The translations under genes and the position numbers were made by a program. Positions 4,138 to 50,375 of a DNA stretch of 64,000 nucleotides are shown here, piece by piece. Origin of the DNA: Xestospongia muta (lineage: Eukaryota; Porifera; Demospongiae; Haplosclerida; Petrosiidae); contig OY848919.1 of NCBI GenBank assembly GCA_963693285.1, positions 8,675,461 through 8,739,460 on the forward strand, read 5' to 3'. Below the pieces are notes generated by a model. It had not been told where the DNA came from. It saw only the letters and a list, made by a program, of their open reading frames with translations, and did no database searches. The first letter of the stretch is position 1. Each line of letters begins with the position of its first letter.

Positions 4138-6553
4138 TTATATCAATGTAGCCAATTTTATGTTTGATAGATCAGCTTCATATTGAATGGAACCATAATC
4201 TTCATATAACCTAAGTAGGCTCTCCCATGTTTTATCATACTTTAACAAAGTTGTGTTTCCTTAAAAATATAAAAATGGTCTTAATAACAGCTACATCATT
4301 TATACCAGCTACAGTCACAATAGCATTATGTCTATAGATAATCACTTTCTTGTATGTGCATATATAATGAAATGCCATATCTTTTTTCTATTTTGATGTT
4401 TCATATTCTGGCTGCTTATTAAATTTAACATGCAATAAAGTTACTACTTTTAGTTTAACAAATACTAATACTCTTACCTATAACAATTAAACCATGTTTA
4501 GCACGTGTAATTGCCACGTTAATTTGATGTTCATCAGTAACAAACCCAAGATTCTCTGTCATCCACTTGTGATCAGGTTGAACTAACTGACGATCTTTGA
4601 TATCATTGATTGGCAATGACCGTACTGTTGTTAATATGACAATGTCATATTCATCACCTATGTATTAAGTGACAACGTTAATCAACATTTTGACAGGCAC
4701 TGACCTTGGCTATCTGTGATGGTTGCAACCTTAGGTTTTGTTTTTTCACTTCTGAGTTTTGAATTTTTCCCCATTAAGTCAATGATTAGCTCTTTCTGGG
4801 CCTTATAAGGAGTTAACACAGCCATACTTTTGTATGATACATTATATTGATTATGTAATTGTTGTATGACTTCCAGCTAAATAAATATATAGCTACAGTA
4901 AGTTACATACAAAATACCAACTTACAACTTTCCAAGCTTCACTGTTGTTTGATTTTGAATGAATATCAACCTTTCCTGTGAACTGTTGACCACTAGCGTT
5001 AGAGTCTTCTACAATATCATAAACAATAATAGGAGACTTCGATTGCCAAAATTTATCAATATTATCACTCAAAGGACGTCGCTCCTTTACAGCTTTATCA
5101 GTCCATAGTTTGTTTTTATAGAAAAGTTCTGAAGGTGGGCGACAAATCATCTCATGCTATATAATAAAAAATTAGCATCTTGTCTTGTTTTTTATATATT
5201 TTTATTTTACAGTATTTTAAAATCTTTAATTTGCCTTAACTTAAGGTCACATCATCAATATACAAGTTTCTTAGTGGTATAAATGTCAGTCCAACAACTC
5301 ACCATTCGATACTGTTTATTTAAAGTTATCATCATGCCTTGTCTTGATTCTGCATATCTTTCAAATAGGGAAATTCCCATTCCACACTCTCTAGCCATGT
5401 GATATTTGATAATTGGCTGAAGTTGTTTATGATCTCCAATAAGTACAACATGATCACATAGACTGGCTGCTGCAATAGTCTCAGGTTCACTAGCCATGCC
5501 ACACTCATCTATAATGCATTGTGCTATTCTTCCCATCTCTGCTAACTTGAGTAGTCTTTTGCTACATGTTTCATTACATGTACACAGAATGATATCATGA
5601 TGATGACTTATCAGCTCTTCATACTCAGCAACTTTGATAGCGCTTTTGTACCTAGATATATATGTATATACAATCAACATAATTTAGTTTACTTTAAAAT
5701 ACTACCTTTCTTTTTCATATGAAGAGGGAATAATATCCATTTTTTCAACAAGTTCTTTATTTTTTAGTCTCATCTCCTCAATTTCTCTGTTGGTTTGTCG
5801 TATTTTAAAATGTAATGCATCATCTCTCAATTCAGGTAAACAACGACTATCAGTATCTTCTTGTTTGGGGTGATCTTCAATTTCTGTTTGCAGTAATGCA
5901 TCATGGCATGGATCAGGATGGTCTACTTTCTCATGAGCACGGCCGTAAAGGCGAATAATTTGAAGCTGTTGACTTTTGGGAAACATAAGATCATTCAATT
6001 GTCTTAGTTGCTCTATTTTTAAGATAGTTGTATAAATAAAGATTTACTAGATACCTGTACTTACTGTGAACAACATCAACTGCTTTATTTGAAGGACAGC
6101 AATAAAGAACACAATTTCTTGAGCTAGCATTTATTTTTGAAAAAATGTATGCTAAGTGTGCTCCTACAACACTTTTACCAGTTCCTGTATTAGAGGAACA
6201 TATAATAACAATAATATTACTGTCTTACCTGGTGGTCCTTGAATTAACTGGAATTTATTTTTAAGTCCAAGATGTATTGCTTGTTTTTGTGCCTCATTTA
6301 GAGAAACATTGCTTCCATCCCAAAGTTTTAGAGCTAAAACATCATGATGAAGGTTTAATTGGTCAGTATTATCTAAAGGATGTTTCAATTGAATTTTATT
6401 GTGTAATAATTATGATTAAAGAGCTGACCTACGATTGGAGAAAGAATGTGACTTAAACCTATTGCAATTTCATCAGCCAGCATTGACCACCATAGATTTA
6501 CAGTAGGATCTTGCAATTCAATAGAACGACATTGCAGACGTTTGAAGACTCGA
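4138..6553 (-). CDS. Helicase C (canonical UPF1-like SF1 module)
   Basis: Nine small exons: 6429-6553, 6229-6372, 6065-6184, 5706-6012, 5303-5651, 4926-5156, 4705-4876, 4478-4657 and 4138-4259. Walker A spans an intron as QGPPG/TGKSVVGAHLAY; motif II is IIDECGMASEPE followed by VLIGDHKQLQP; then LNKQYRM joins HEMICRPPSELFY across an intron; motif V region is GDEYDIVILTTVRS, and motif VI is INVAITRAKHGLIVI. It ends GNTTLLKYDKTWESLL and a TAA at 4138-4140. This module is more UPF1-like (GPPGTGKS) than A and B, and corresponds to the C-terminal helicase of HELZ2. The exon-rich structure contrasts with the large exons of A, B and RNB. Confidence 0.85.
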
Positions 6554-9500
6554 CTGCAAAAAATCTAAATTTAAGTCATAGTTCAAATTGCTTACCTAAA
6601 AGAAACTAGCATTTCAATAATTTGTATTTCACATAATGGCTGCAGATCCAAGTATGGCTTTAGCTCTTGTGATATCCAACAATGACTTCCCATTGCCTTC
6701 ATCTCTAGCAAAACAGTCTTAGTAGTAGCATTCATCCTTTCCTGATACTTCTTTCTGGTGACAACAAAATGAAATACTGCTGTGAGGTCCTTGTTCTGAT
6801 CAGTTATATCATATCGAGCACATACTAAGTCACCTGTCTTGATTTTAATAAAGTCAAAAATATGAAGTTTATTTGATGGAATCTCAAGAGTCAACTGGCC
6901 ATCTGGTTCATAATGTATATCATCTATACAATTACTTACAAGAAATAGTTTTGGCCATTTCAAATTAGCGTTTTTGACTAGTGTAATAACTCGAGTGTTA
7001 ATCCCCACATAGGCAGCTTCAGCAACTAACACCTTACTCCATAACTCAATGTATTCATAAATAGAATGATAACTTTCACGAGATGCTTGTTGTAAATGAA
7101 CCTCACAAAAGCACTCCACTGGATTCTGGTTGTGTTGTATGCAAACTCTAAAAGTTGGTGCTATTTCCAATAGATGTAGTTCAGGAGATGGCAGTGCTTG
7201 CTTAAATGATTTCCCTAACCACACATTAATAACTTCGTCAGTCTGGAAAGTCCTTGCAATGTTATATATCACTATAGGGCTTCTTGTAAATTCTAAATTT
7301 AGTAAATGACTCTGCTTTTGTTTTTGATGAGGTAAATCAGGAAGCTTCTTTATTAAGCTAGAAATTATTTCACGGGAAGGTGATTTCAGACATTGATGTG
7401 CTAAATCCCACAGATCTGAATACACTTCAATTGTATTACTAATGACAGAAGCATTGTATTTAACACACTTCATTTGCTTTTGTGTATATTCTAATGACTG
7501 AGAAATATAGTGAAATACACTTGCTTGAATATGACAGTAACTTCTGCCCCTTGTTACTAGTGATTCTTGACTATTAGTAAAGTTAGCCACTCGAGGATCA
7601 TTAAGTAAGTCATTAGGGCTATTATCTAATGAAGCTAATACAATGTGCCATTTTGGCTCATTTTCATTATCATATCGGTTTATGTTTAGGTCAGAATATT
7701 CAAACTCAGTATTTTCATCAAAGACGACATTATAGCTGGATAAAGGAATATGCAGCTGATAGACTTGATCCTTGACCCTTGGAAAAGGTTGAGATACAAA
7801 TGCTTCCATTTTGATTAAAGCAGTTTCACAGTCCCTTGCTAAACGAGCTTTATGCATGCTTTGCTCATATCTATCAGCTAATTTTCCTTTTAAGTTTAGG
7901 TGACGACATATATCTTGAAGCTCTTTGTGTGTGTAGGAGATAACATCTTTATCGAGTAATGCTAAAACTAGTCTTTGCACTAATATGTCAAAATAACATT
8001 GGATTGGAGAAGTGAAATGAGTATATACATGAACATTTAGGCTATCATGTGCAAAAACACAGATGTTTTCCTCTTTTAGAGTCTCATCAAATTTAGCAGA
8101 AACATATTCTGATCGTTGGACAATCTTTTTTAATACAGCTTCTGCTCTACTCAATTGTGGATACAAATTATTATTCGATAATGCCCAAAGGATGCTTTTT
8201 TGGTGACAATTTTCATAGGCCTTCTTTATTAAGTGAATTACAGAACCTGTAACGATCAATGGCCTGGGAAGCATATTTTCCACTACAGAATACTTTTTAA
8301 GTGCCAAAGAGTAGTCCAGAGTTTCTTGAAAGATGTTTCTAAATTTAGATAAGTTTCCTGCAAGAGGTGGTAGTTGTCTACATAGAAGAGGCATTTGCAT
8401 CAGGTTTTGGCTCAAATATTCAGCTATCCTCAAATTAGCCCAAATCATAATTTCTGTAACAAGGAAATGGGACTGCCAACAGTCATGGTGGTCCCCAGCT
8501 GAGTCTAATACTCCATAGGACTCTATTAGTAATCGTTTTTCTCGTAAAAATATTGCAATTTTATAGAGTAATTTAAGTGTATCAGCAATACCCATTCCAC
8601 CTGTCTTTGCATTAAAGTCAATCAAGTGTTTTTTAATTTCATCATCTTCAATTGGTTTATCATCTAATACGTCCTGAACTACTTTGTATGTTAAACAAGC
8701 TTGTGATGTAACATGTGCCTTTTCAGGATCATTACACACTATTTCATTTATCTCTCCATCCTTTAATACTATAGTAGCTGTTACTGCTAATACATCATGA
8801 GTTGTATTGTAATTGAGACTGAAGATTTGTGTTGCTAACTTCTGTGGTAACATATGAATAGCACTGTCACCCCCATAAGCAGATGTTCCTCTTTTTTTGG
8901 CTATTTTGTCAAGTTGACAATCTTTGGGAATGTACTTGGCTACATTGGTAATAAGTACAGCTAATCTGTAAGTACTACCTTCTTGTAGAGGAACTAAGCT
9001 AATAGCATCATCAATAATAGTTTGATTTGGAAAATCAATAGTAAATGCCTGATCATAATGCAGACCAACGTGTTCTTCTGGTGATATTTGAAATGGTGTA
9101 ATGGTAAACTCATTGTCATCGCTTTCTTCAATATCATGTACGATTCTGAAAAGTCTTTCAGTAAAAAAAAGGCTTGAAGTAAAAGGCAATACTTCAACTA
9201 CAGCTCCTAGTGGCTTCCAATACTTTGGTGACCATCCAAGAATTTGGACAACAAATAAAAGATTTTGTGACACATCAGATGGAATCAATTCTTTAATTTG
9301 AGGAAGTTGGTCTGACTGCAAAGATGACATTTTGAAAATGGTAATGTAATCAGTAGGCATGTAATCTTGATATTGTAATTGCTCTTTTGAAATTTTGGGC
9401 AAGTTAACAATAGCAGGAACTGATTTATCCAAGGGATAAAAGTATATCACGTTATATCGGTCAGCTCTACAAATGTACTTGGTTGGATGCCTTGCTTCTT

Positions 9501-12500
9501 TTAAGAATACAACTTTTCCACACTCTTTATCATCCTGTGTGGAAAACACATGAATACCAACTATATCCCCATCAAATGCACCCCTTCTGTGATTAAATCC
9601 ATTAATTATGATTGGCTTAGTATGCTTTGACATATCAAGAGGAATAGCTTCAGCAAGGTGCTGATTTTTAATGGATAATTCACATATGATTCCTTTCTCT
9701 TCACAACTAGTATCTTTGTGATGGGTCTCAATTTCATTAATCTTGACAATTCCCCACCTGCTTTCTTTCTGTACCTGTGAAATCTGAAGTTTACAGTTTT
9801 TGTATTGTGGTATTTCCTGGATTGTCTTTTGATATGATTTTAAGATGCTATCTTTTGTTATTAATTGCATGTCACTTTTAAAGTCACTTGGTGTAAAGAT
9901 ATCTCTTTGTAGATCTTTTAAAGACTCACATAGATCTTCTAAATTTCTAGACTCTGTGGTTGGTACATAAAATGTTTTAGATAAAACACATCTCCTAATG
10001 TATTCCTTCCAACTAAAACAATGCTTGTCTATTTCTTTTTCTATCTTCATTAAAAGAAAAGGATTACCAGCACACACTACAAGAGATTTAGCACGTGTTA
10101 GAGCAGTGTTAAAGACATATCGACTACATGGAGTCTTAGTACGGTTTGTAGACATCCCATCAGTTGTTAGGGGCTCAGCTGTACTCAAAAATACTGCTTC
10201 AAATTCACGACCTGAATATGTGATATTAAAACTGACTGCATAAAACTACAAGTATAAATCACCTTGAATATCAAATATTGGCAGTACTTCAACTGATTTT
10301 AGTTCTCTGTATTCATTTCTAAGTTTTTTAATGAAATGAGATTTCTATATAAGATATAACATAGTAGCACATAAATAGAGAGTGTACTTCATTACTTGAT
10401 AGGCTGTTGATGCCATTATACAGACTTCTTTGAGAACTGTTTCCCCCCATCCTTGTCTCTGCCGGTATTCATCAAGATGTTTCAAAAGCAAATCAGCTTC
10501 ATAATGATAACGCTGGTCATCTTTTTCTTTCAAAACACCTTTGTCTAAGCTTGAACATAAAAAATGAAGTGGATATTCAGCTTCAAGATGTGAACATTTA
10601 GCAGCTGTTATCAATGATGAGTCATAAAACAGGTAGGAAGGTAATGAAAGCAATGCATGACTACATCGATAATTAGTGATAAGTGTAGCAATGTGTGTCA
10701 TTGAAATGTCTGTGAGACATTCTGTATAGGTTAAGTGTAATCTTTCAAGAAGTGATATCTTCAGGCCATGTTTCATTGCTAATTCACCCAAAACAAGTAC
10801 AGAAGGACCAACCTACAGATAAAAAAATTGATTTATTGGATTAAAGGAAGTACTGCAATTAGCTTACTTGTTTGTGGTCTCCTGCTATTACAATCTTAGT
10901 ATTCCAATTGGCAAGGCACAATGGAGCTATTGATTCTGGTTCCCGAGATTGTGCACCTTCATCAAGTAGAATGTGAGTGAAAAAACCGTTTTGGATACGA
11001 TCAATGAGGTGAAGGGAGGTTAAAAATGTTGTGACAACCAAGTGAGTCCTTTGAAGTTCATGGTTGAAAAGATTCCTAGCTGTACAATAATAAATATTAT
11101 ACTCTGGATTGGCCTTATAATTCTCATTAGGAATAAGACGTAGGGGTTTTGGACACCATCCTTTTTCATACATTTTTCCAAAATAACTTTCAATAAATGT
11201 GTCAGCAGAGGTTTGATGATGGGCACAGATAAGCACACGTGAATTACAATCATGTTGGAGAATTTGGTAGGCTGTTCGAGCCAATAGTCGAGTTTTACCA
11301 GTTCCAAAAGAACCAATGACTAAAACAGGAGCTGTACAAGATTTACAATTCATTATGGTCTTTAATGCCTTATTTTGACATTTATCAAGATGTATTAAGT
11401 TAGGAAGTGAAGCAATTGGTTTGAGTGGTTTGTCGATGACAGACATATGTGTAAAGTCTTCCACAGCTACTGGTATAACCCTATTCAAAACCTCTAATGG
11501 TAATTTATCAATGGCTTTATGAAGATTTTCAAAGTAAGACCATTTGAGTGTGAAACTCACAAATATGGAGTTGCCCAGGTCAAGTTGTTCTTCCTTTATT
11601 CTAAAATTATGTACAGTTATCTTGGATATTTCTTCTTCAGTAAATGCTATCAATAACGCATCCACACCCCATTTCTTTGGAATATTTCCAGTCACTATGT
11701 CTGCTTTAACTGCTCCAAATGATAAATGCAAATTAACACTCCCTCTGTCTGCACTAGATTGCTTAGCATATGATACTTTGTCACTATTAAGTGTATCACC
11801 AGAGATGATACCAAATCGTACATGGTCTTTTTCATATGGATCTTTAAGCCAATCAATTACAAAGCCAGGTTTTAAGATAGTCACAGTGTATTGGCCATCA
11901 CATCTAAAAGTAACAGATTATAAATAATACCAATGTTGAGTATTTACAGTATTCACAACCTTTTAGAAAGAACACGATCATGTTCTTCTTCTTCTTGACA
12001 TAACAGCTGATGAAATTTTGCCCTGTAGTTTTCTCTACTAAAAGGATCTTCCAACAATTCTTTATCTAAAGTTCTGTGTACATGTTTAAATGCCTTCCCT
12101 TGTAAAGCATTGATTGATGGTCGTATGAAAATATGCTGTTCTGTTTCCTTTTGCACATGCAATGAAGTTGATAGTTTGTCTTCAAGAGTCTGCAAAAATA
12201 GTAAATTCTACAATAAAATTAAAATTGATTTATGAATGCCTTTTAAATGCTTTATGTTTAGTTTCATGAAACCTATCAGGCACATGATCTGGCTTGTCTT
12301 ACAGTGTCTTGTTTATTGCATAAGGAAAGTTTATCAACTATCTAACTTGTGTGTAGGTTTAAAACTTTAAATGAAACAAACTTGAAATGAAGAAAATGTT
12401 CTTCAAATTCAATGGTTTCATTTTTATATTGGAAAAGATATTTTACAGAAACTTTGTAAGAATATGTACTTATTTACTTACAACAGTACGAGCGGTTTGT

Positions 12501-15500
12501 ATTGACTTAAATCTAGAATGCAATGCTTGTCTTGCAGGTATACGGTTTATTGTAACTTCTTTAATCTTTGGCTCTTCCATTACTAACTCTTTCTTTTCTT
12601 CACAAAATGGTACAAAGTTCATTGGTGTCATCTTACTCATCTTGTCAGTAAATACATTGTCTGAGTTCAATTTGACTTTTTTACGACTTCTCTTTTTTGG
12701 TTTACTAGACAGCATGGCTGCTTTTCCTAACATCTTAGTGTTGGCTGGAGTAGATAGAAAAGGACTAGCAGCATTTTCAGATAATAAATATCCCTCATTT
12801 GATGAGTCCATTCTAGAAAGGGGTTGCGTGGCAAGTGGCTTTGCACAAAATTTATCATCACCTTGAAATAAAGTCATTATGTCTGTAAAGTAAAATACAA
12901 ATTAAATATGTAACTGTCAATTAAATATTTACCTGATGTCTGTCGGCTCTTTAGCAACTTTTGAAATAGGTTTTCAATTTTGTCCGAGAGACTTTCAAAA
13001 GCATGTGGAATGATAAAAGTGTCTTCATTCAGACACCTTGTGATGAATTCTCTCCAACACCATTTTGGTTCATTCATTGTACCTTCAGACATCATTAAAA
13101 CTATTGGATTGCCAACAGCAACAACAAGAGATTTGGATCTTGTAATAACTGTGTTAAAAACAGCAGGATGACAGAAACTTTTGACAACATCAAAAGGTCT
13201 TCCTGAAGGTTCTAGACCTTCCACAGTACTAATAAAAAGTAGTGAGTATTCCTGACCTACAAATAAGTCAAAAAAAATAAAACTTAATTGCACATACCTT
13301 GCATTTGAAAGCTAGTACAAACTTTGACACCTCTCAAACAAGTGTTTTCACTTGATTTATATATTTCTCTATGTATCACATTTGCCTTTAGTAGGAAAAA
13401 ATGTCTATCAAAACTTTTAATGTTATATTGTAACCATACCTGGTTTAAACTGGCTGTCATGATACAAACATCATTAGTGCACCATTCTTTATATTTCAAC
13501 AATTCTTTTACTTCATGAAGAATCAATAGTGCTTCATTTAAACTTTCTGGAGAAGTAGGAATGCTATTATCAAAACTAGAGCAAATAAACATGAGAGGAT
13601 ACTGAATGGAAGAACAACACTTTGTATCACCACAAGACTCTAAGGCAGAATCATAGAACAACGTTGAAGGCAGTTCTAATAGTTCGGCTTGGCAACGATA
13701 GTTGCAGTTCAATGACACTATGTATTGAACAGCTGGTTCACCAAAATGTTGGTATTGTTTGTGTAATCTCTGCAGTAGAGACACTCCTAAACCATATCTT
13801 TGAGGCTCATCACCTAATACTACAAGTTTGGGACCCACCTAAGCAAACAAATTAATAATAAAAGTTGATACTGTACACATACCATACCTGTTGACTGTCA
13901 CCAGCTATTATAATACGAGTATGTTTATTTGCCATTATAAGTGGTGCAATAGTCTCAGGTTCTCTTGTTTGTGCTCCTTCATCAATAAGAATATAGTTGA
14001 AATATTCTTTAGCAAATTCAGACATCCACAATGCAAGACCACATGTAACAACCACAATGACGTGTTTCTTGCTTTGGTAGGAATGAAAAGACTTTTTAAA
14101 ACTATTGACAGTTATAAAACAAGTGGTATTTTTCAGAGCAGCTAAGCGTTGCTTAGTGGTTACACGAACAACTTCAACATCTAATGGATTTTGTGGATTT
14201 AGAAAATAATCATTCATGAAGATGTCTGCTGAATCTTGCTGATAACAGCAAATGAGAACATGACTATCATTTTTGTTCTCTTTGCTATAACGGATAATTT
14301 CTTGAGCAGCAACAGCTAAAAGACGAGTCTTGCCAGATCCAAATGGACCAGGAATTAAAACAGGAGCTGATGATTGACTAAATAGCATTGTCTGCAGACC
14401 ACGGAATTGGTCTTTATCCAATTTTAGTTGAGGGAATCTTGTTTTTGGAATTGGTCTAAGATGCAAGCCTTCATCAAAGTCTTCTCGAATGGGAATTATT
14501 CTTCTCAAGGCTTCATCAGATATTTTAAAAATTATGTCATTCAAATTTTGAAAATAGGAGTGGTCTACTTCAAATTTTACATCAACACTCAATTTATGGG
14601 GAAATACGCTAGAGTGACTCACATTCAAACCAATATAGAGTGAGTCAATAGATGTGTCACGGTTGCACTTCAATAACGTAGCCTTGTATACGACTTGAGG
14701 CTCATCACAAGGTGTGATAATTGCATGATTACTTGCCTGCAAAGCATATGTTATCTGACTTGCGCTCATTCCCTCAAGATAAGCATATGAACTGTAGTAT
14801 TCAACAGGTTTTTTGGATGGAATATGTTGTCGGTGAATATGAGCAAGTTTGTATTTGCCATCACACCTATAGTTAATAAAAAGAGCTCAAATAAACAACA
14901 ATAACTTACTTCCTGTGAAGAACTTGACCATGTTCTATTTCTTCATAGTACAGTAATGCTGAAAATTTCCTCCTGTAGTTTTTTAAATTGACAGGTATTG
15001 TCATGTCATTTTTGGGTGGAGGTTTTTTATGCTTTTTCATTGATAAATCCTTTTGTAGAGCTTCTTGAACTTCTTGGCTAGTTTTGGCTTGTGTCTTGTA
15101 AGTTTTATCCTATAATAACAAAAATTGAATATACATGTAGACAAAACTCTAAGCTTTTAACAAGATATCATATTATTCCTGAGATATTTTAAATTACTAC
15201 ATACCAGCTTTGTTGAAACAGATTTAGGCTCATTAACAATTTTAGTGATTTGTACCGGAGGTTTCACTATAAAAAGAAGTATCAATAAATAACTACCTTA
15301 TTAACAGTAAATTTTAAACTTTTATTGTGATCTAAACCTTGTTCAAGACCATGCATTTTAACTTTCTCAATACTATTATGTCAGCCTTAAACATTATAAT
15401 TTTAATAACAATTTATAAAATTAGTTCTTACTAGAACTTCGAAGTTGAGATTGAGATGAACTTCCACTTTGTACATCTTTGAGAGCATTTTCAGTTGTAA

Positions 15501-16766
15501 GATATGTTTCCCTGACATAGTTTTCAGCAACAATATCTAAAAATGTGATAACCCAATCATTTCTCTTTAAACACTCTATACCTTTTTCTCCTAATTTTAG
15601 TAACTTAGTGAGGATCAACACTTCTGGTTTCTCAGAAAATGAGCTATGTAACAATGCATAAAATGAATTTTCTAAATCAAGTAATACTTACAGTACAGTA
15701 ACTAGATCAACATTAACTTTATAACACTTTCGTGACTCTTCCCATTTAATGTATACAAAGAGCTGCGAATTATGAGAACTTTCATTAAGTATTACTGTGG
15801 GAAGACTGAATACCAATTCAATACACCCTACATTGTAATCTTGAAAATGCAAGATGGCTCCATTAGGAAAACCCAACAACTTAGCAAGATTTCGTTGAAT
15901 AGCTTTGACTTCACTCCCAGTTATGCAGAGATCTTCAGATATTTTAAAAAGGAGATTAGTACGCTGAGATTGATCCTCAGAAGGATCACATGGTATTTCA
16001 AAAATAGAATGTTTTAGATAAGGAATGAGATGTTCATTTTCGTATGTCTTTAAATACGTCTTCTCAGAGTCATTTCCTGCAATCTTAACGATAACTTGCA
16101 TCAACTCATAATTAAACCATGAACAGTGCTTAGATAACTCAGAAAACACAGTAGTGATACGGTCATCTTTGCTGAAATCAAAAACTAGAGAACGATGTAA
16201 ACTTCGTGAGGTGCCAAAACTAGTTGCAAGGGACTGAATATACATTGGGTCAACATTACGTTCTTTAAATGAAGGTATAATTTTCCCAACAAAGAAAGTA
16301 TAAGCTTCACGCACATCTCGATTTTCATCCATCAGTGTATTTATCACTTTCTCTTTGTCACTCTCTGTGAACTCATCCCAGTTAGGGTAACGATCTTTTG
16401 CTTTCTGTGGAGCAAATTTACATGGCATTTGATGTTTAGCTGAGGTAAATTTAATTGAAAGATACTTCAATATGGATTCTGCGACAAATTTGTCTTCCAT
16501 TTTCAAGAAAACTTTTACTAGCTCTCCAAAAGTAGCAGCACTGCCATTTTTCCTCTTCCAGGACCATAATACAGCATTTTTTTTCTCAACATCCCCACTT
16601 TTCTTTGTTGAAATATTTGTCAACGTTTCTTTAGATAAATCAAGACAATGTCCTAGTTTCATGTAGTCTTCGATTTGCTGTGAAACTTCAATAAAAAGAC
16701 CATCATCACACTCTTTTTCCAACTGCTCATCCGATAGACAATACTGCTGCAAGAGATTTGGAAGAT
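4138..16766 (-). CDS. HELZ2-like triple-helicase/RNB protein with death domain
   Basis: Twenty-three exons on the minus strand can be joined with GT-AG introns in consistent phase: 15692-16766, 15432-15643, 15205-15266, 14910-15109, 13888-14866, 13440-13838, 13298-13385, 12933-13256, 12482-12882, 11960-12189, 10868-11903, 10396-10812, 10263-10344, 6596-10211, 6429-6553, 6229-6372, 6065-6184, 5706-6012, 5303-5651, 4926-5156, 4705-4876, 4478-4657, 4138-4259. The first begins at an acceptor in phase 1, so an upstream exon must exist; 29815-30160 fits. Order: death domain, UPF1-like SF1 helicase A, helicase B, RNase II/RNB domain, helicase C. Vertebrate HELZ2 has helicase, RNB, helicase, so this protein has an extra helicase unit and an added death domain. 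No stop or frameshift was seen. Likely role, by inference: RNA binding or degradation tied to death-fold signalling. Confidence 0.85.
6596..10211 (-). CDS. Large exon: helicase B end plus RNase II (RNB) domain
   Basis: A single 3,616-base exon. The first ~60 codons finish helicase B (VFNTALTRAKSLVV). After a ~320-residue region with OB/cold-shock-like strands (for example GAFDGDIVGIHVF), the RNB domain starts near 9040: FTIDFPNQTIIDDAISL, then a barrel core with LDKIAKKRGTSAYGGDSAIH, MLPQKLATQIFSLN, LTYKVVQDVL, and LKLLYKIAIFLREKRL. This is the HELZ2 arrangement, where the RNB follows a helicase. Of the four acidic residues in the RNase II D.....D.DD motif, the first, third and fourth are present but the second is isoleucine (codon 9016-9018). 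Activity may therefore be reduced or lost. The rest (to 6596) resembles the post-RNB S1/linker region. Confidence 0.85.
10263..11903 (-). CDS. Helicase B (UPF1-like SF1 module)
   Basis: Exons 10868-11903, 10396-10812 and 10263-10344; the module finishes at the start of the next large exon. It opens with CDGQYTVTILKPGFV. Walker A is GSFGTGKTRLLA, motif II is LLDEGAQSREPESIAPL, then IVIAGDHKQ. The second exon gives VGPSVLVLGELAM and LITNYRCSHALLSLP. The third contains LKSVEVLPIFDIQ, leading into REFEAVFLSTAEP. Motif VI, NTALTRAKSLVVCAGNP, is encoded at the high end of 6596-10211. Intron positions equal those in helicase A at several points. The motifs look complete, so an active ATPase is expected. 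Confidence 0.85.
11960..12189 (-). CDS. Exon 11: helicase B lead-in
   Basis: Encodes TLEDKLSTSLHVQKETEQHI and ends YRAKFHQLLCQEEEEHDRVL, parallel to the YRRKFSALLYYEEIEHGQVL end of exon 5. The donor leaves AG, completed by A of the next exon to give an arginine before CDGQYTV. The parallel exon pair (lead-in, then CDG-starting helicase exon) shows that modules A and B duplicated with their gene structure. Confidence 0.75.
12482..12882 (-). CDS. Exon 10: basic linker between helicases A and B
   Basis: The exon encodes a low-complexity linker starting DIMTLFQGDDKFCAKPL. It includes the strongly basic run KPKKRSRKKVK, which looks like a nuclear localisation signal, then an acidic/charged stretch (CEEKKELVMEEPKIKEVT). 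It is flanked by good acceptor (TTTACAG) and donor (GTAAGT) sites and keeps phase. No folded domain recognised. A plus-strand frame over the same bases is its shadow. Confidence 0.7.
12933..14866 (-). CDS. Helicase A (UPF1-like SF1 module)
   Basis: Four exons: 13888-14866, 13440-13838, 13298-13385 and 12933-13256. It starts with CDGKYKLAHI, a barrel strand repeated in helicase B. Walker A is GPFGSGKTRLLA, motif II is LIDEGAQTREPE, followed by IIIAGDSQQ. The next exon gives VGPKLVVLGDE and LNCNYRCQ (motif IV region), then VCTSFQMQGQEY (motif V) across an intron, and NTVITRSKSLVVAVGNP (motif VI). All catalytic signatures needed for ATP binding appear present. DEGAQ instead of the UPF1 DEAAQ is seen here and in helicase B. 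Similarity of modules A and B, including exon boundaries, points to an internal duplication. Confidence 0.85.
14910..15643 (-). CDS. Exons 3-5: linker and helicase A lead-in
   Basis: Three exons (15432-15643, 15205-15266, 14910-15109). The first follows a 48-base intron ending CATAG and encodes an alpha-helical segment with a serine-rich end (SGSSSQSQLRSSS). The second is a short linker. The third ends in YRRKFSALLYYEEIEHGQVL, the conserved segment that leads into the beta-barrel of HELZ2/MOV10-type helicases. All phases agree with the neighbouring exons (1, 0, 2). Confidence 0.75.
15692..16766 (-). CDS. Exon 2: death domain plus uncharacterised region
   Basis: The acceptor TTGTTGTAG precedes 16766. 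Roughly residues 15-100 of the exon are a death domain: LGHCLDLSKETLTNI, then VLWSWKRKNGSAATFGELVK, then AESILKYL, matching the usual helix 2-3 and helix 4-5 signatures (W.. KNG..AT...L). The remaining ~250 residues (for example FNYELMQVIVKIAG and VGCIELVFSLPTVI) resemble a conserved but unnamed region that I believe accompanies death domains in other sponge and cnidarian proteins (from memory, not checked). The exon ends ACT GTA CT before GTAAGT. The TTG codon near its start is not a true initiator; the exon is internal. Death domains normally mediate homotypic assembly of signalling platforms, so this region probably couples the helicases to partners. Confidence 0.8.
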
Positions 16767-17167
16767 CTACAACAAAATATGTATAAAATCAATAACAATA
16801 ATATTAACTTGCATGGTCAAATATCTATGCATTATAATCAAAAGTACAGTATCACAGAAAAGGCAGCAAGATTGTAATCATTGCCTTAGCTTATAGTAGA
16901 GGTTGCAGGAGACTACTAACAGACATAATGGAGTTGGCAGGACTAACATATTTCTGAATTGTTTGTTTAAATTGGAGGTTAAATTAGTGTAATAATTTGT
17001 GTGTTTAATTACTTATTATTCATTATGTAATGATTATCTAATGATTATGTTTTTGTGAGCATGCGCTTAGAGCATGTGTCGAGCTAGTCAGTTCTTTCTT
17101 GTAAATAAGTTGTTGTCAATCTTCTCTAATTTTGGTTGATCGTTAGCGTGGTCTCAGGTTACCTCAT

Positions 17168-19519
17168 TTGGCAATGAGGATAAAAACCTATTCGATGCCT
17201 GTTCACAGGAGAGTTGAGTGTTTTGATCCAGCAACCGACGATTGGTCTACTTATGTTGAGAGGTTAGAACATTACTTTATTGTGAATGACATAATAACAG
17301 AAGCCAAGCGTCGATCAACCTTGTTAACAGTAGCTGGTCCAGAGGTATATTTGTTAGCTTGTAATCTGGTAGCACCAGGCAAAGCAGGTGATAAATCATA
17401 TGATGACTTTGTGGCACTTATCAAGAAACATTACTCAACCACACCATCCATTATTGTTCAGCAGTACAAGTTTCATACGCAAGTACAAAATCAAGGTAAA
17501 TCGATAGCGAAATTTGTTGCCGACTTACACAACATAGCCAAGCATTGTGAGTTTAACGATGCTTTGGACAATATGCTCCATGACTGATTAGTTTGTGGTG
17601 TTAATGAGCCAAAGATACAAAAAAAGACTTCTGGCTGAACCTAAATTAACTTTGACGTCAGCATTTGATTTAGCACAAGCCTTAGAAACAGTCAGCAAGG
17701 ACCTTTTAGATATACAACCGTCACAAGCTCAGCCCTTAGTTGGAGATGTTTCCATTCACCAGATGCAAGATAAAAAGCAAGGAACTACCTGTTATCATTG
17801 TGGAGGTCAACATCTTCCTACAGGTTGTCGATTTAAGGACTACCAATGCCATTATTGTGGTAAAACAGGACGCTTACAGAAGGTGTGTCATAAGAAGAAG
17901 AATGGTCATAGGAAGACACAACAAAAGCGTTCACAAAAAGAACAGCAACGTGATCTAGAGACCAAAACACTTAGTGTTGTATCAGATGATGGTGAGCCGG
18001 AAACAGAGTTTCTCACTATGTACCCAGTGAAAACGACATCTGTGAAGCCAATTCGGGTGTCAATGGTGATTAATGGTCAAAGTAAGGACATGGAACTCGA
18101 CACTGGTGCATCTGCATTACTTATAAGTGAGTCAACATACTTCAAATTGTGGAATTCGGATAGCCGACCAACACTCAAGCCATCAAAAGTTCGTTTAAAG
18201 ACGTATACAGGAAGCGTGGTGGAAGTTGTTGGTGTACTAAATGTTAAAGCTAGTTACGACGGTCAAAACAAAGTGGTACAACTACATGTTGTAAAGGGGG
18301 ATGGACCTAGTTTATTAGGCAGAGACTGGCTCCAGGTGATCAAATCGAATTGGGCTCAAATAAATCTAGTACCAAGCCCCTCCTCTGCTTTAGACAAGTT
18401 ACTGGACAAGCATGCTGCACTATTTCAGGAAGGACTAGGTTTACTTAAAGATGTCACTGTAAAGTTACATGTTCGTCCAGATTGTGTTCCCAAATTCCAC
18501 AAGCCTTGTCCAGTGCCATTTGCACTTAGAGAAGAAGTTGAGAAAGAGTTGGAAAAACTACAGAGTGTGGGAGTAATCAAGACAGTTGCCACATCAGGCT
18601 GGGCAGCACCAATAGTGCCTGTGGTTAAAAGAGATCATTCGATTAGAGTGTGTGGAGATTACAAACTGACTATTAATCAAACTAGTAACACAGAAACTTA
18701 CCCTCTACCTCGTATAGAGGAAATATTTGCATCACTTTCAAGTGGTAAAACTTTTACAAAGTTGGATTTGCAGAATGTGTACCAACAGCTGTAGTTAGAG
18801 AAGAGTCAAGAACTGGTAACAATAAACACACACAGGAGGTTGTTCCAACATACATGGCTACCCTTCGGGATAGCTTCTGCACCGGGAATTTTCCAAAGAA
18901 CTATGGAAACAGTGTTACAAGGCCTTCCAGGTGTATGTGTACACTTGGACGACATTCTAGTTACAGGAGCATCTGAAAAGGAGCACCTGAAATTAGTGTT
19001 GCAGAGATTGGAGGATGTTGGTTTGTGGCTAAAGAGAAGTAAATGTCAGTTTATGGTGTCTCACATAGAGTACCTTGGCCATCACATTGACCAAGAAGGA
19101 TTACATCCAACAGCTGGACGATACAAGTGATCCAGAAAGCTCCAGCTCCAACTAACAAGACTCAGCTCAAAGTATTTCTCGGTTTGATAAATTATTATTG
19201 CAAATTCTTACCTCATTTGTCTTCTAGGTTGTCACTGCTCTATTTGTTGCTCAGGAAGAACAGTCGGTGGTATTGGACTAAAGCACAAGCGAATGCATTT
19301 CAAGCTGTCAAGTCAGGATTGTCTTCAGATCTTTTGTTAGTTCATTTTGACCCAAACAAGAAGATTGTTTTGATCTGTGATGCCTTACCATATGGTGTGG
19401 GGGCGGTCCTATCTCATCTCATGAATGATGGCACAGAACATCCAATTTCTTTTGTCTCTAGGACATTGTCACAGGCAAAGTGTAACTATGCTCCTATAGA
19501 GAAGGAAGGATTATGGTAG
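17168..19519 (+). mobile_element. Truncated Ty3/gypsy retrotransposon (gag-PR-RT-RNaseH)
   Basis: Plus strand, split over four frames. Order: gag-like (FDPATDDWSTYVERLEHYF), zinc knuckles (CYHCGGQH and CHYCGKTGRLQKVC), aspartic protease (LDTGASALLIS), reverse transcriptase (YPLPRIEEIFASLSSGKTF, LPFGIASAPGIFQRTME, HLDDILVTG), and RNase H (LICDALPYGVGAVLSH). It stops at 19519 without integrase or a 3' LTR. Stop codons separate gag from PR, interrupt RT (18792-18794) and follow RT. The second knuckle has arginine where histidine is usual, and the YxDD box is H-L-D-D. A dead element, cut by the next retroelement. No clear LTR pair was found. Confidence 0.85.
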
Positions 19520-19787
19520 CTGTCATCCCCAAAAAACTAAATTTGAACATATCATCACCCCACTGGCACCTGAATTTGCACAGGAATTTTAAGACTACAT
19601 CCTATCTCCACCAACCGATTCGTACTATGATGTCCTAAAAAATCAAATTGTACAACGTATTGCCGCTTTGGAGCAACATCAACTTCAACAGGTATTTAAT
19701 TCTGAAAAGCTTGGAGATCGTAACCCAACACAGCTACTTAAAAAAGGCAGTGGTACTGATCCCTTATTCTTATGTAAATTATTAACC

Positions 19788-20946
19788 TCGCTGTGCGTGG
19801 GCGCATAGCGAGGGTACTGTAGTCTGTTTGTGTGTGTGTGTGTCTGCACTGCCTGTTTTTTTTGAACTGCTATAACTTGGCAACCGAAGCATTAGCAGCT
19901 ACCAACGTTTAGCAACGAATAGAAAAGCATGTGGACTTTACAACAGTAGTGTCAAGAACATCGTCAAAGAAAACAGAAGCTTAAAACTCGCAAAAGAATT
20001 TTCAGGCTGCAGAGGTCAAGTGCCGTTTCTCGAAAAGTAAAAAACTTAACGTGGAGATTTTTTAGTATGTTGTAAACAATCTCAGAGGAATACGGATCAG
20101 CAAGACAGAAGGCCGTTGGTCGAAGTAATCGTTAGAAAAGTTCTGAAAAATGTTTTGTGGACTTGGAGCGAAGTAACTCATTCAGGAAACGTCTCCAAGC
20201 ACTGAAAAGACTGCTACTAATAGATAATATATCGATTTATATTTGTACCACGGGACGTTTCCAAAGAAGGTTTCATCTTCAAGTTACAATAAATTTTGTA
20301 TATGAAATATTGATAGATTTTTTCAGGCTGCAGAGGTCAAGTGCCGTTTCTCGAAAAGTAAAAAATTTAACGTGGAGATTTTTTAGTATGTTGTAAACAA
20401 TCTCAGAGGAATACGGATCAGCAAGACAGAAGGCCGTTGGTCGAAGTAATCGTTAGAAAAGTTCTGAAAAATGTTTTGTGGACTTGGAGCGAAGTAACGC
20501 ATTCAGGAAACGTCTCCAAGCACTGAAAAGACTGCTACTAATAGATAATATATCGATTTATATTTGTACCACGGGACGTTTCCAAAGAAGGTTTCATCTT
20601 CAAGTTACAATAAATTTTGTATATGAAATATTGATAGATTTTAAAGGGTCATGTAAAGACTCAGAGAAACTTTTCATCACGAAAGTAGCACTTAATCTTG
20701 CTTGGGAATTGAATGATACTATCACTTATTCAGTTACTGCTTCACAAACATGACAAAGCTAGAAATCAAGCAACAATTAATGAGCATATACAGAATGACA
20801 AAGCTTGCCATTTTATAACCACACCTTCTGGAATGTTAATAAATTTTTTTGCAATAACAACATCATAGCTGGGCCTAAGCTGGCATAGAATTTATAAATA
20901 ACTTAGAAACTACAGCGAGGTTCGGCACTTTAGTGCCTTTCATTTT
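19788..20946. mobile_element. Hairpin-ended repeat, copy 1, with internal 321-bp tandem duplication
   Basis: Inserted in the gag frame of the gypsy element. The left end forms a hairpin (CCTCGCTgTGCG, loop, CGCATAGCGAGG). The right end carries ACAGCGAGGTTC, the inverted complement of the left AACCTCGCTGT, followed by a small hairpin GGCACTTTAGTGCC. The interior contains a near-perfect tandem duplication with a period of 321 bases, starting about 20000 and 20321, and a segment (~20645-20830) that copy 2 lacks. The two short frames starting MDLERSN in it are the duplicated unit read twice, not genes. Target duplication looks like a short TTA/TA. Class unknown. Confidence 0.65.
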
Positions 20947-23279
20947 TACAGTGATTACCTTCTAATGTACGCATGGTACTTGCCTCCACTAATGCCACTA
21001 ATTTCGATGTATTGCACAACTGCCTGATCAAATTATGGAAGTAGCCAAATCTTGAATTTCAAATGTTACTGCTTCCACTGAAGTAGAGCAATTAAGGGCA
21101 AAGAGAGAAGATCTCAAGAGAATAGTACACCCACTGCTCACCCCAAACTACAACATCAGTACCGATCACCCTCTCGGCAACAATCACAAGGATCACTTTG
21201 CCATCTATACCGAATAAAGAGATGTGGTGGTATCATTGATTTGGAAGTTCAGCACCCAAATGTCAACCACCTTGCAATATGTCGGGAAACATGCAGGCCG
21301 GCCACTAGTAGCAGTGAGTGTTACTGGCCAATCTCAAAGTCGTTTATTTTATATTAGAGATCATAACAGTGGATTTCACCTGCAAGAAGATACTTGTGCA
21401 GAAGTAAGTGTAGTTCCATCTAGAAATACTGAACACAAACACCAACATGATGGATTTACACTACAAGCAGTTAATTACACTCCAATCAAGACTTATGGCA
21501 TTCGGCTTATCACACTCAATTTCAACCTCCGTTGAACATTTTGATGGCCCTTCATTTTAGCAGATGTCCATAAGCCAGTCATTGGTGCTGACTTTCGCAG
21601 GCACTTCCATCTGCTAGTAGATATGCATCACAAAAGATCAGTAGATGCTGTCATACAACTCAAAGTGCAGGGTATTTCTTCTTAGTACACATCTATGAAA
21701 TTAGTTTGGCAATTAACTAAACCCAAGACTGAATTTGAAACTGGACTCACTGAGTTCCCTTCTATTACTCAGCTGAACACACATGACCATCCAATTAAAC
21801 ATGATGTGACTCAACACATCAAAACCAATGGCCCACCAGTACACTCAGAAGCACGTCGATTTTCCCCTGAGAAACCTAAAATTGCTCATCAAGAGTTTGA
21901 ACATATGCTACAACTGGGTAATCATCCAACATTCATCTAGCAACTGATCCTCATATCTTTATATGGTTCCCAAAAAGACACCGGGGGATCGGACCCCTTG
22001 TGGAGGTTACAGAGATCTCAATAATGTAACAATTCACGACCGTTATCCCATCCCTCACATTCACAATTTTTCTCTGCTAACTTACATGGATCTACTATAT
22101 TTTCTTAAATTGATCTTGTCAAAGCTTACTACCAAATACCAGTACACCCATATGATACACCCAAAACTGCAATTACCACCCCCTTTGGACTATTTGAATT
22201 TACTCATATGACCTTTGGCCTCGAAAACGCAGCATAAACGTTTCAAAGGTTCTTTGATCAGGTCTTTCAAGGACTTCACTTTACATATGCTTATATTGAT
22301 GATGAACTTATACCTAGCCACTCTTGTGAAGAACTTTTACCATTACATTGAAGGACGTACCTTTTACATTGCCACTGATCATAAACCCCTAACCTTCTCT
22401 TCACCAATGAACACAAACAAATGCTTGCCACGACAAATCTGACAACTCAATTTCATCTCAAAATTTATTTCTGATATTAGACATATCAGTGGTAGTAACT
22501 AGCCGGTAGCTGATGTACTCTTTCGACTACAGATACAAGCAATCCAGCAAAGACCTTCAATGATAGACTTTGCAGCAATGGCAATCTCCCAACAATCTGA
22601 CCATGAAGTCCAAGCAATACAGTCATCATGCTCTTCATCACTCAAATTTGCTGATATCTCTATTGAAGGCACAGAGACTACTTTAGTTTGTGATACTTCA
22701 ACTGGTGTACTCTGATCATATGTACCTAAATGTTTCTGATAACAAGCTTTTGAGTTATTACATTTACTTTCTCATTCGGGTATACGTGCAACACAATATC
22801 TGGTTAATTCATCTTACATTTGGCCAAATATGAATACAGATGTCAGGAAATGGACACCTTCCTGTGTACAGTGTCAAAGAGCTAAAGTGCAACAACACAC
22901 GGTATCTCCTCATTTTACATTCACTATTCCAGATGCTTGATTTGATTAGATTCATATTGATACACTTGGACCATTACCCCCTTCTAATGGTTATTTATAA
23001 ATACTTACTTGTATTGACAGGTTCACACATTGGATACAGGCCCTGTCCTTAGTCGATATTACAGGTGCAACAATCCCCAGAACATTCATAAATGGATGGG
23101 TTTCAAGTTTTGGAACACCTTCCACTATCACAATTGACCATGATCAACAATTTGAGTCCATCCTTTAAAAACATCTCATTGTACTATTGGGTTCTGGTTG
23201 GATATGTACTACAGCTTACCATCCTATTTCAAATGATATGGTTGAACGTTTCCACAGACAGTTCAAAACAATGTTTAAA

Positions 23280-25482
23280 CATAGGCATATCTAGGTCTCT
23301 AAAAGTACTAGTGCTCATTAATTATTCATCATTATTAGTTAGTAGTTATTAATAGTTATTGTCAATATTTAACCTTTACTCAACCAAAAACAAGTTCATT
23401 TAAAAAGAAGGGTTATCTTAGAATTGTTGTGTTTACAAGCAAACTTTATGAAGAGCTCATCCAGACAATCACATAGATGAGATAACAGGCTTCTTTCTAT
23501 TGACAGTAATGCTAAACTATCCAACCTTTCCTGAGACATAGTGGAACACAAGTACATCTTAATGCGACGAAAAGATGAAAAACTGCATTCGGTTGCAGTA
23601 GAGGTACCAAAAGTCATTGCTACCATTAAGCACTCTCTCAGAAGTGGAAATGCTTCCTTTACAAGGTCTATGTGCTCCAAAGGGTAACCAGTGTCCTTTT
23701 TGTCCTCAGGAATTGGGTTTCATACAAGAAAATTTCGGAAAGTCATAATTTCATTCTGTAAATTGCCAGTGGGAAGACTTTCGTGGTATTGATCAAGAAG
23801 TGGAATAAAGGAGTCAGCTTTAAGATAATTCTTTCACTTGGGATTCACACAATTGATTGATTTTATCAAAGATGTGTTGATGTCACTAAATCTGTCCCTC
23901 ATTTCTGTGAGAATCACATCAATAGTGGGGAAGTATACATCTACTTTGTAGCTATCACTTGATGCTGAATTTGAAGTAGTGCTACTGCCTTATTGTCTTA
24001 GTTGTCATTACATAGTCATTCATTGCAGCAGTAGGTTGCCTCTGTTGTCTTCTTCTAGAAGTAACTATCTTTATTTCATGGTGTCTAGCAAAGGCAATAG
24101 CTTCTTCCCGGAGCAGATTCCATACAATATCAGTACGCAAGCTATCAAAGGTGTCAATTGTTGCTTGGATAAGGCTAGCAACACTCCCAAGGTCTAGTGA
24201 ATCCTTTTGGAGTGAATCTGAAAGATTAGCAGATATCCCCATTACCTTTTTAAAGATTGTAAGGCTGACTACAAATCTGAACGTCTTTACCCCAGACAGA
24301 ATTCCACTGGCTTCAACAGTCCTGTTTCTGTCCGAACCATTGACTGTTTCTTTAAGAGTTTCAAGAATTGATGAATAGATTGCCATGAATGCCACAATTG
24401 AATTATAGCAACAAGACCATCTGTTATCAGACAGTTTCTTCAATCTAATCTCCCTACCACCACTAGCCTTCTGAATTGAAAGGAAGCGTTCATGACATTT
24501 AGATGCAGTGAATAACACATATAATGCCTGCAAAAGAGTGAAAAAGTCAGAAGCCTCTCTAACATGTTTTGCCACATCTACTAACACAAGATTCAGTCTA
24601 TGAGCAGAGCAGTGGACATAAATGGCTTGAGGACACTTTTTCTTCAACAAGATTTGAACTCCTGAGTTACAGCCACTGATGACAGAGGCACTGTCATAAC
24701 TCTGTGAAACCAGATAATTAAGGTCAAGACTAAAGTCAGATATTTTCTGAAGGATATAATCAGCAAGTGCTCTAGCTGCTAGTTCAGAAGCTAAGATGTA
24801 ACCACTGAACCTCTCTACAATTTTAAAACCATGGACATACCTGAAGGTAATAGACAACCATTCCCTTTTGCTTGTATAATTGTTTCGTCAGCTAAGACTG
24901 TGAAATAGTTAGCTTCATAGATCTCTTTTTGATGTATTCTTGAACTTCATTTGCAAGGAAGTGGACGATTTCATTTTGAAGACTTGGTAAAGCCATGTAG
25001 CACTTTTGCTGCGGTGTTTAAACAATCTCTGACTTGTTGGCAATGTTGAGAGATGAGCATCATCAGTGACTTCAAATTTCCTGGATTTAGTGCATTGTTA
25101 CCTTGATCCTGTCCACGAAAGGCTATTCCATGTTGTGAACAGTACAGAATACAACACTCCATCAACGCAACTGTATACTTTCTGTTTTGACAGATGACTT
25201 CTGTACCCATTTGATCCAGCTGTTTACCAATTGATTGTCCTGTCACCACTTTCTTCTGGTATTCCTTCCAAGCTGTCATGGGATTAATTACTAAGTGTGA
25301 AGTTATACATGTGAACTGGGATGTGTTAGTGGTTAATCTTTGTGTAATAAACAGATTATGAATTTCATTTTGGTTAAAGTACAAAACCAATGAATTTACT
25401 TTTGAAAAAAAATAATTAATTTTGGTCTGGGTAAGTTTACCTAGGCAAAGCCCATACTGCCCCTGGTCTAAATACGCCTATG
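23280..25482 (-). mobile_element. hAT transposon with decayed transposase, inserted in integrase
   Basis: Ends are imperfect inverted repeats, CATAGGCATATCTAGGTC on the left and GGTCTAAATACGCCTATG on the right. The flanking octamers TGTTTAAA (23272-23279) and CATTTAAA (25483-25490) fit a diverged 8-bp target duplication. On the minus strand a transposase of the hAT type (DUF4371/ZMYM-like) is spread over three frames: HGIAFRGQDQGNNAL (about 25130), YFTVLADE (about 24910), QSYDSASVISGCNSGVQILL (about 24700), LSDNRWSCCYNS (about 24420) and the C-terminal dimerisation part TATECSFSSFRRIK...LDSLALLSIERSLL (23400-23610). Stops and frameshifts make it non-functional. Confidence 0.8.
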
Positions 25483-25535
25483 CATTTAAAGTATACCCTA
25501 ATTCAAATCAGTGGACTGAAGGTCTACCAATTACT

Positions 25536-26146
25536 AACCATGCTATGTGTGGGTTTATAGCGAGTGTACTGTAGTCTGTGTGTGAGTGTCTGCATTGCCT
25601 GTTACTGGGGATTGTTTTTGAATTGCTATAACTTGGCAAGCAAAGTGTTAGCAGCTACCAACGTTAAGCAACGAATATAAAAAATTGTTGTCTTTACAAC
25701 AGTAGTAGTGCGTTTCTCGAAAGTAAAAAACTTAAAGTGGAAATTTTAAAGTGTGCTCAAACAATCTTAGAGGAATATGCATCAGCAAGACAGAAGGCCA
25801 TTGGGCGAAGCAATCGTCATAAAAGTTCTGAAAAGTGTTTTCAAGACTGTATATGGACTTGGAGTGTAGTAACACATTCAGAAAATGTCTCAAAGCACTG
25901 AAAATCTGCTACTAATATAATATATTGATTTATATTTGTGCTACGGGACGTTTATAAAGAACTTTTCATCTTCAAGTTACAATAAATTTTGTATATGAAA
26001 TATTGATAAATGTGACCACGCCTTCTAGAATGTTAATAAATTTTCTTGCAATGCTACCTAGCAATATCATAGCTGGGCCTAAGCTGGCCTAGTATTTATA
26101 AATAACTTAGAAACTGCAGCGAGGCTCAGCACTTTAGTGCTTTTTT
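25536..26146. mobile_element. Hairpin-ended repeat, copy 2
   Basis: About 610 bases, the same family as 19788-20946 without the tandem duplication. It starts near AACCATGCTATGTGTGGG and ends GCAGCGAGGCTCAGCACTTT plus AGTGC. It lies in the integrase reading frame of the second gypsy element; removing it restores LPI-(I)-LLGIR coding. The flanking TTA is present on both sides (CCAATTA left, TTATTC right), suggesting a TTA or TA target duplication. Confidence 0.6.
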
Positions 26147-26339
26147 ATTCTTCTTGGCATCAGAGGACTTAGCCAGTTCTGCAGCCGAAATGGTTTATGG
26201 TACTACTCTTTGTCTACCAGGAGCATTTTTCAACCCACAAGCAAATGAAAACCTTGATTTAATTAATTATATACCAAATCTAAAAAAAACTTATTAAAAA
26301 CCTCTAAACAGTTCCTCCTCGCTCCAATCAACATCAACC

Positions 26340-27400
26340 AGTACATGTTCCTTCTTATCTCCTTGTTTTAGTTACAACCCCCATATGACAGCCCATATAG
26401 AATCATTAGTTGTACAAAGAACATTTTGCAAACTCAGTATCCACTATGTTACTAATTATTATTCAATACTAATTTTTGGTATCACATGATATAATAAAGT
26501 TATCAGTTTGTCTAGGGGAAAATGAAGCATGTCTTTGTAGTTAATTTGCACCTCTTCAGACTGTGCAGTTGCAGTAGTAGTGAGTCATAATATTAGCTAC
26601 AATAGCACAGAACTAACTACACTATGAAAGCATTTATTGTGAGGGTTTAGACTTTAAATCATTATAGGTGCATGTGGGTGCAGTTTCTAGCTGTTTTGTG
26701 GATGTGTGCCCATTTAATAACTTTGTTAATTCTTATATGAAATGTTGTTGTCTGTGTTGATCTTGTTAAAGCTTATTTGACTTTGTAGATTTAATCTGAG
26801 TTTTATTAGAGACCATGAGTAAGTAGGGAAATTCCTTTCAAAAGGCCACTACATTAAATTTTAGTGGTATTGTAAGCTGAACGTAATTCCATTAATAACT
26901 ACACAAATGTGTAACAATAACTCAGTCCATCTTGTGGATACCTGATGTCCTCATAATATTTCTTTGTAATGGCACCCTATTTTTTCTATCTTAGTGATGT
27001 CTGTCAACTTTGTCATTTGTTATAAGAAAGAAGTAAAAAATATTTTTATGTCAGAAATTTGATATAAATTCTTTGTTTTTATTATTAACATATATTTTAC
27101 CACATGCATTTAGGTGATTAGGTAACAAGATATAACTAGAATTTATAGAAATCTATTTGTACAACTTGGGTATTGTGTTGCCTCCAGACCCTTTGTTCCT
27201 ATAACGAGGAGGTTGGGTATAAATAGGCCCTGGCCAGGGCAAGTTAATTATTTATTTTTCTTCTTCACGTGTGAAAGTTACTCTTCACTATAGCACTTGT
27301 AAGTCCTAAATAGTAGATCTGTGCTTATAAAAGTATTTATCAGGTGTAAAGGATGTCAAATTTGTGTCTTTTCATTTGAAAAACTAAAATTGCTATTTCT
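26340..27400. other. Intergenic within proposed intron, nothing recognised
   Basis: AT-rich sequence with no coherent coding frame. A GC-richer stretch near 27180-27250 (with GGCCCTGGCCAGGGC) immediately precedes the transposase-like remnant and might be its promoter or element end, but no partner end was found. Confidence 0.35.
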
Positions 27401-27429
27401 GGTGAGACTTGTCCTCCCAAGAAGAAGCG

Positions 27430-50336: not shown

Positions 50337-50375
50337 CCACTACATATTATAACATAACATTCTATATAACATACC

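Follow-up and report, generated by a model that had tools for sequence, protein, structure and literature searches.

Animals sense viral RNA chiefly through superfamily 2 (SF2) helicases, the RIG-I-like receptors (RLRs), and through toll-like receptors. Sponge RLRs are described that combine death and helicase domains (PMC8998645), and sponges also carry a large family of proteins with N-terminal death-fold and TRADD-N-like domains, variable C-termini and transposons nearby; the same source describes fusions of TRADD-N to Mov10, DDX60 and RLR-like receptors (Kaur et al. 2021, PMC8195603). HELZ2 is a 3'-5' exoribonuclease, interferon-induced in human. It is called poorly characterized, and the human protein acts on LINE-1 RNA mainly via its helicases and less via its nuclease (PMC9839780). 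Two HELZ2 genes of the sponge Dysidea are at lower levels with symbiont microbes than with microbes from seawater (PMC11229196), and in a sea anemone apoptosis is induced by double-stranded RNA (PMC11251625). Here, a gene on the minus strand of a 64,000-nucleotide stretch of the Xestospongia muta genome (contig OY848919.1, positions 8,675,461 to 8,739,460, hereafter the window) is analysed. Judged from its sequence, it is on balance probably a single 24-exon HELZ2-type gene, in which first exons of a Death/TRADD-N-like adaptor family replace the Cys/His-rich start of HELZ2 and the RNB nuclease is predicted to be dead, and its product is likely an RNA receptor that would signal via death-fold assembly.

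The initial annotation had joined 23 exons in phase without a stop, and rebuilding gave the same count: 23 exons on the minus strand from 16766 to 4138, with GT-AG borders, consistent phase, one terminal stop and 3,622 residues. The exon at 16766 opens inside a codon, and a first exon had therefore been missing; instead of the start implied at 16766, an ATG exon at 30160-29815 was found upstream that joins in phase, extending the model to 24 exons and 3,738 residues. The domain order is an unclassified domain, Death, TRADD-N-like, helicase A, helicase B, RNB and helicase C, and 16 of the 22 introns of the 23-exon part measure 41-56 nucleotides. The layout is as follows.

29815..30160, minus strand: first coding exon (exon 1), with ATG, 115 codons plus one base, and donor G|GTATGT
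16767..29814, minus strand: intron 1, 13,048 nucleotides, with broken transposon-like frames
from about 17147, inside intron 1: broken frames like a Ty3/gypsy-type element, Pfam below cut-off
23982-24887, inside intron 1: DUF4371/hAT-like transposase frame, Pfam below cut-off
15692..16766, minus strand: exon 2, with Death domain, helical region and TRADD-N-like domain
16671-16462, minus strand: Death domain, in exon 2
about 15975-15694, minus strand: TRADD-N-like domain, in exon 2
15432..15643, minus strand: exon 3, 'SFSEKPEV...' helical linker, first part common to the adaptor family
15205..15266, minus strand: exon 4, short linker of 62 nucleotides, the weakest exon of the model, required for phase
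14910..15109, minus strand: exon 5, start of the HELZ2 body ('...NLKNYRRKFSALLYYEE...'), aligned to Amphimedon P0001
12933..14866, minus strand: helicase A, of superfamily 1 (SF1); exons 14866-13888, 13838-13440, 13385-13298 and 13256-12933; Walker A at 14349-14326
11960..12882, minus strand: linker exons ahead of helicase B, 12882-12482 and 12189-11960
6596..11903, minus strand: helicase B and RNB; exons 11903-10868, 10812-10396, 10344-10263 and 10211-6596; helicase B Walker A at 11314-11291
7951..9048, minus strand: RNB domain (PF00773), Pfam E 2.2e-46, aligned with 21 relatives and seven own copies
4138..6553, minus strand: helicase C; exons 6553-6429, 6372-6229, 6184-6065, 6012-5706, 5651-5303, 5156-4926, 4876-4705, 4657-4478 and 4259-4138 (stop); Walker A at 6238-6171, interrupted by an intron

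Since both Pfam matches within intron 1 are below cut-off, the transposon labels there are partly by eye.

The body of the joined product is of HELZ2 type. Domain searches that the initial annotation had suggested found Death, AAA_11/AAA_12 and RNB all on the joined product, with AAA_11 in five stretches, AAA_12 in three (the best of both within helicase C) and RNB at E 2.2e-46, while the match to OB_HELZ2 (PF25049; E 7.9e-6, 26.0 bits) is below the 29.3 cut-off. The three helicase cores retain Walker A (GPFGSGKT, GSFGTGKT and GPPGTGKS), motif III, motif V and motif VI, the last found with a relaxed pattern after a stricter one had matched none; the Walker B boxes of helicases A and B fit the pattern, and helicase C carries DECG, read by eye. 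As in HELZ2, an SF1 helicase, an RNB domain and an SF1 helicase thus lie in a single predicted chain. Homology extends to HELZ2 or HELZ2-like proteins of Amphimedon, Dysidea, lancelet, coral, urchin and fish: 21 full-length relatives were compared (sponges, lancelets, corals, urchin, fish and four Joint Genome Institute records), most of the named ones carrying a HELZ2 or HELZ2-like label, and in the tree the window gene groups with HELZ2 proteins in a sponge clade that includes Amphimedon, the Dysidea row being long-branched.

Seven genes of HELZ2 type are found in the sponge's own genome (158 Mb); each encodes helicase A, helicase B, RNB and helicase C in this order and each includes exon 5. 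The three helicases, initially regarded as special, are therefore ordinary in this genome, and the outside relatives P0001 and P0005 also have three Walker A boxes. Linker exon 12189-11960 is likewise present at a third gene on contig C3 (about 11.57 Mb; the window gene and its twin, described below, being the other two) and at four loci on contig C9. The window gene differs from HELZ2 in its extra helicase A, as in all seven own copies, and in its Death/TRADD-N-like head, and it is without the Cys/His-rich start and the RNB Arg-Arg pair. In all four C9 copies an upstream ATG exon is Cys/His-rich and resembles by eye the zinc-finger starts of Dysidea and shark HELZ2; no such exon was matched at the window gene or its twin, and because this start is missing the gene is named HELZ2-type rather than full HELZ2. 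The third C3 gene is also without a Cys/His-rich exon there and has an adaptor gene immediately upstream. The tree order is the C9 pair (3.00 and 3.85 Mb), then the third C3 gene, then the window gene with its twin, with support of 100/100.

The head comprises more than the Death domain initially noted; it also includes an upstream exon without a Pfam family, a further helical region and a TRADD-N-like domain. The Pfam Death match is above cut-off on the joined product (E 4.8e-7) and on the exon alone (E 1.1e-8), and the domain has the Death fold, which together with the rebuilt in-phase exons supports the earlier claim, at the level of sequence, that a Death domain is joined to a HELZ2-type protein. 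In a structure model, the TRADD-N-like domain follows the beta-alpha-beta-beta-alpha-beta order of the TRADD-N superfamily, its last helix being short and broken, and the tiny residue-Ser/Cys motif in the beta2-beta3 turn is GC in the window gene and present in 88 of 91 regex-matched family sequences (20 of 111 were unmatched). This adaptor family has 114 exon matches in the sponge genome, and its splice donor was kept in all 30 loci inspected; of 28 other loci of the family, 26 have a SEKPEV-type exon beyond a short intron. Ahead of the family's Death exons there is often an ATG exon with a phase-1 donor, and the counterpart of exon 1, which has 150 scored matches in the genome, sits at most 1.5 kb upstream of the Death exon in 20 of the 28. 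Exon 1 itself matched no Pfam family, and a PDB search also gave nothing.

Head residues 1-450 had no match among 3,677 candidate HELZ2-length proteins, so that no second full-length fusion was detected at that sensitivity. Similarly, residues 1-411 of the 23-exon product gave no match better than E 2 to the 21 full-length homologs, and Death is absent from the Pfam matches listed for them. The region C3 11.42-11.75 Mb contains Death/TRADD-N-like exons mixed with HELZ2-like helicase and Cys/His-rich start exons, and it is possibly a nursery of such fusions.

The window RNB has lost conserved active-site residues. The Arg-Arg pair of YTHFTSPIRRY, whose first Arg we take to be Arg500 of E. coli RNase II, is changed to Gln-Cys (codons 8001-7996), and the second metal Asp to Ile (codon at 9015). 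The pair, which corresponds in alignment to SPIRR of solved DIS3-like 2 structures, is kept in all 21 outside relatives, and of the seven own copies only the window gene and its twin have lost it. The second Asp position reads D in 16, N in four and A in one of the relatives, and D, D, N, N, V, I and I across the own copies. The RNase II active site uses four Asp and Arg500 (PMC3293843), and with three of the four Asp and without the Arg the window RNB falls short of this set. An RNA-degrading role, one of the two first proposed, is therefore unlikely, and the protein probably senses foreign RNA, which would trigger death or immune signalling, instead of cutting it. The fold, by contrast with these sites, is not broadly decaying as judged by alignment: 13 of 135 otherwise invariant sites are changed, comparable to other copies. 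The Pfam score of the window RNB is 163 bits, the window gene and twin being the lowest of the seven (163-207). Taken alone, the window codons CAA (Gln) and TGT (Cys) at 8001-7996 are each one CpG-kind transition from an Arg codon.

A near-identical twin lies about 96 kb away, with window 3670-30160 corresponding to C3 8583500-8608881. Identity is about 99% over at least 20 kb in two blocks (compared over window 3670-24632), the copy of exon 1 near the twin (C3 8608582) is identical, and about 1.2 kb (window 19784-20941) is absent from one of the two copies. Either the region was recently duplicated or two haplotypes were left uncollapsed. The aligned exons, 10,871 bases, show 62 substitutions and no gap, and 29 of the 62 are synonymous, above the neutral expectation; the twin retains every splice site and one terminal stop. 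By this measure the coding sequence shows purifying selection, which would have acted within the species if the twin is the other haplotype.

The splicing of head to body was assessed by a path search that scored splice sites and codons. The best in-frame path from the Death exon to the first HELZ2 exon scored 40.2, whereas no value above 21.5 was obtained in 400 dinucleotide shuffles, and this top path puts an extra 45-nucleotide intron in exon 3. For the three linking junctions taken singly, 10, 17 and 2 of 300 shuffles did as well, compared with 0-28 of 300 for the 19 other junctions; across the 23-exon part the best path equals the model at 21 of 22 junctions, with another acceptor favoured between exons 9 and 10. 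Exon 3 has a coding score of 0.189, which exceeds the 95th percentile of 86 control segments (0.174) and is level with the helicase exons, and is helical in a single-sequence structure model (predicted local distance difference test score 75.5). From these results we infer a single transcript. It is unlikely that two adjoining genes are present, the first an adaptor that terminates within exon 3 or shortly downstream of it and the second a gene of HELZ2 type that uses an ATG of its own in exon 5, although the exon 3 frame stops three codons past its donor (SSSKN*), exon 4 codes weakly, and at C3 about 11.58 Mb an adaptor gene with coiled-coil frames lies directly upstream of a HELZ2 body. An AATAAA at 15326, in the intron after exon 3, would also suit two genes, though this signal is common in such AT-rich sequence. 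Against this arrangement, none of the 400 shuffles scores as high as the splice path and only 3 of 1000 reach junctions 2 and 3 jointly; moreover, the coiled-coil frames that follow other family copies were not noticed by eye between exons 3 and 5, and a Cys/His-rich first exon with ATG is missing.

A fused protein whose helicase-RNB part is still an RNA-degrading effector, activated by death-fold assembly, is unlikely. The variable C-termini of TRADD-N proteins were predicted to be effectors (PMC8195603), in vitro RNA degradation is described for human HELZ2 (PMC9839780), the RNB keeps three of its four Asp and its core is not broadly decayed, but both Arg of a pair invariant in all 21 relatives are changed, together with one Asp. 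The loss of these residues, an RNB core slightly faster than that of the third gene, the transposon-like frames that occupy much of intron 1 and the roughly 99% identity of window 3670-24632 to the twin region, which could be allelic, would also fit a decaying duplicate or uncollapsed haplotype pair without function. This is very unlikely, given the ungapped exon alignment, the synonymous excess, and the intact splice sites and one terminal stop in both window gene and twin.

Several observations weigh against the single-gene receptor that we favour. Intron 1, at 13 kb with transposon-like frames, contrasts with a gap of about 0.3-1.4 kb in adaptor-family loci. Junction 1 is weak by itself, because 78 of 1000 shuffles reach it in a test with a shorter shuffled stretch; exon 4 has a coding score of 0.038, like control segments; and linking exons 3-5 differ from the twin by one synonymous and four nonsynonymous substitutions, too few to tell and giving no coding signal. 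The TRADD-N-like label rests on modelled fold order and the motif, the fold search having barely covered that part, and Pfam TRADD-like_N matched one of 36 family members (E 0.08) and none of seven trimmed sequences. For the Cys/His-rich C9 exon Pfam gave no zinc-finger match, the zinc finger being by eye only. At the third C3 locus the tree does not pair the immediately upstream Death exon with that of the window gene, and the adaptor-helicase link is not convincing, so that the fusion is known only from one near-identical pair. In the nuclease, loss of the Asp alone is no proof of inactivity, because N in four and A in one of the 21 relatives occur alongside a kept Arg-Arg, and the RNB core identity to C9 copies (57, 59 and 51%, compared with 61, 61 and 55% for the third gene) is slightly lower, a hint of relaxation.

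A mechanism for the single-gene receptor can be proposed from what is established about SF1 helicases, RNase II enzymes and death-fold adaptors. Foreign or retroelement RNA would be bound and threaded by the three helicase cores, whose ATPase motifs are conserved, together with the RNB/OB fold that the protein retains; lacking the catalytic Arg pair and one metal Asp, the protein would hold on to the RNA without digesting it. RNA binding would cluster several copies, and the clustered N-terminal, Death and TRADD-N-like domains may nucleate an assembly that recruits death-fold partners, with kinase, caspase or NF-kB-type outputs. The gene itself may have arisen by exon replacement beside an adaptor-family copy. 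Yeast Ssd1 has, to our knowledge, neither a helicase nor a death-fold head. It is a non-enzymatic RNase II-family protein, likely a translation suppressor, whose fold binds RNA without catalysis (PMC8934651), and it is a precedent for an RNase II fold that holds RNA uncut. The immune RNA-handling role suggested by the initial annotation holds as the likeliest function.

The RLRs, including death-domain RLRs (PMC8998645), share a death-fold head on an RNA helicase and are comparable in how they would work; they are SF2 helicases with a RIG-I C-terminal domain, whereas the window gene encodes SF1 helicases and RNB, and no RIG-I domain is among the Pfam matches listed for the joined product, whose best families are AAA_11, AAA_12 and RNB. 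The sponge Death-like and TRADD-N proteins share the head, and a HELZ2-type C-terminus is unnamed in the main text that describes them ('helz', 0 occurrences; PMC8195603). The architecture had been thought undescribed; death-fold and RNA-helicase fusions are in fact known in kind (PMC8195603, PMC8998645), and the part that stands is the HELZ2 combination, for which we found no earlier report in searches for HELZ2 and death domain with sponge or domain architecture, the supplement of PMC8195603 that lists architectures being outside their coverage.

Elsewhere in the window, ankyrin repeats with Roc and a sub-threshold COR-A match lie at 50340-54859 (minus strand), and the frame 50340-50765 (minus) after the ankyrin/Roc region looks death-fold-like by eye and had no Pfam match. 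Related frames at 31632-32684, 39962-40444 and 41881-42641 (all minus) are Cys-containing and secreted-looking ('SQVCGRVVGYQ...GISLTHGSPR'); a Pfam scan of the first gave no match. Broken frames at 47517-49150 and 57223-58057 (plus) resemble piggyBac-type and hAT-type transposases by eye. Viral-contig scans, genome-contig scans, and tRNA and Rfam searches gave nothing informative for the window gene.

In summary, it is tentatively proposed, at somewhat short of even confidence, that an RNA exonuclease became an immune receptor in this sponge: a Death/TRADD-N head would have replaced the HELZ2 start and the nuclease would have been disarmed with its fold and helicases kept, giving a second, independent kind of death-fold and RNA-helicase sensor beside the RLRs, while catalytic paralogs destroy RNA. 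If so, an RNA receptor was separately invented in a sponge, HELZ2 gains a link to cell-death signalling, and the birth of a receptor by exon replacement can be followed to source parts that are identifiable in the same genome, namely free-standing adaptor genes and those HELZ2-type paralogs that have the usual start.

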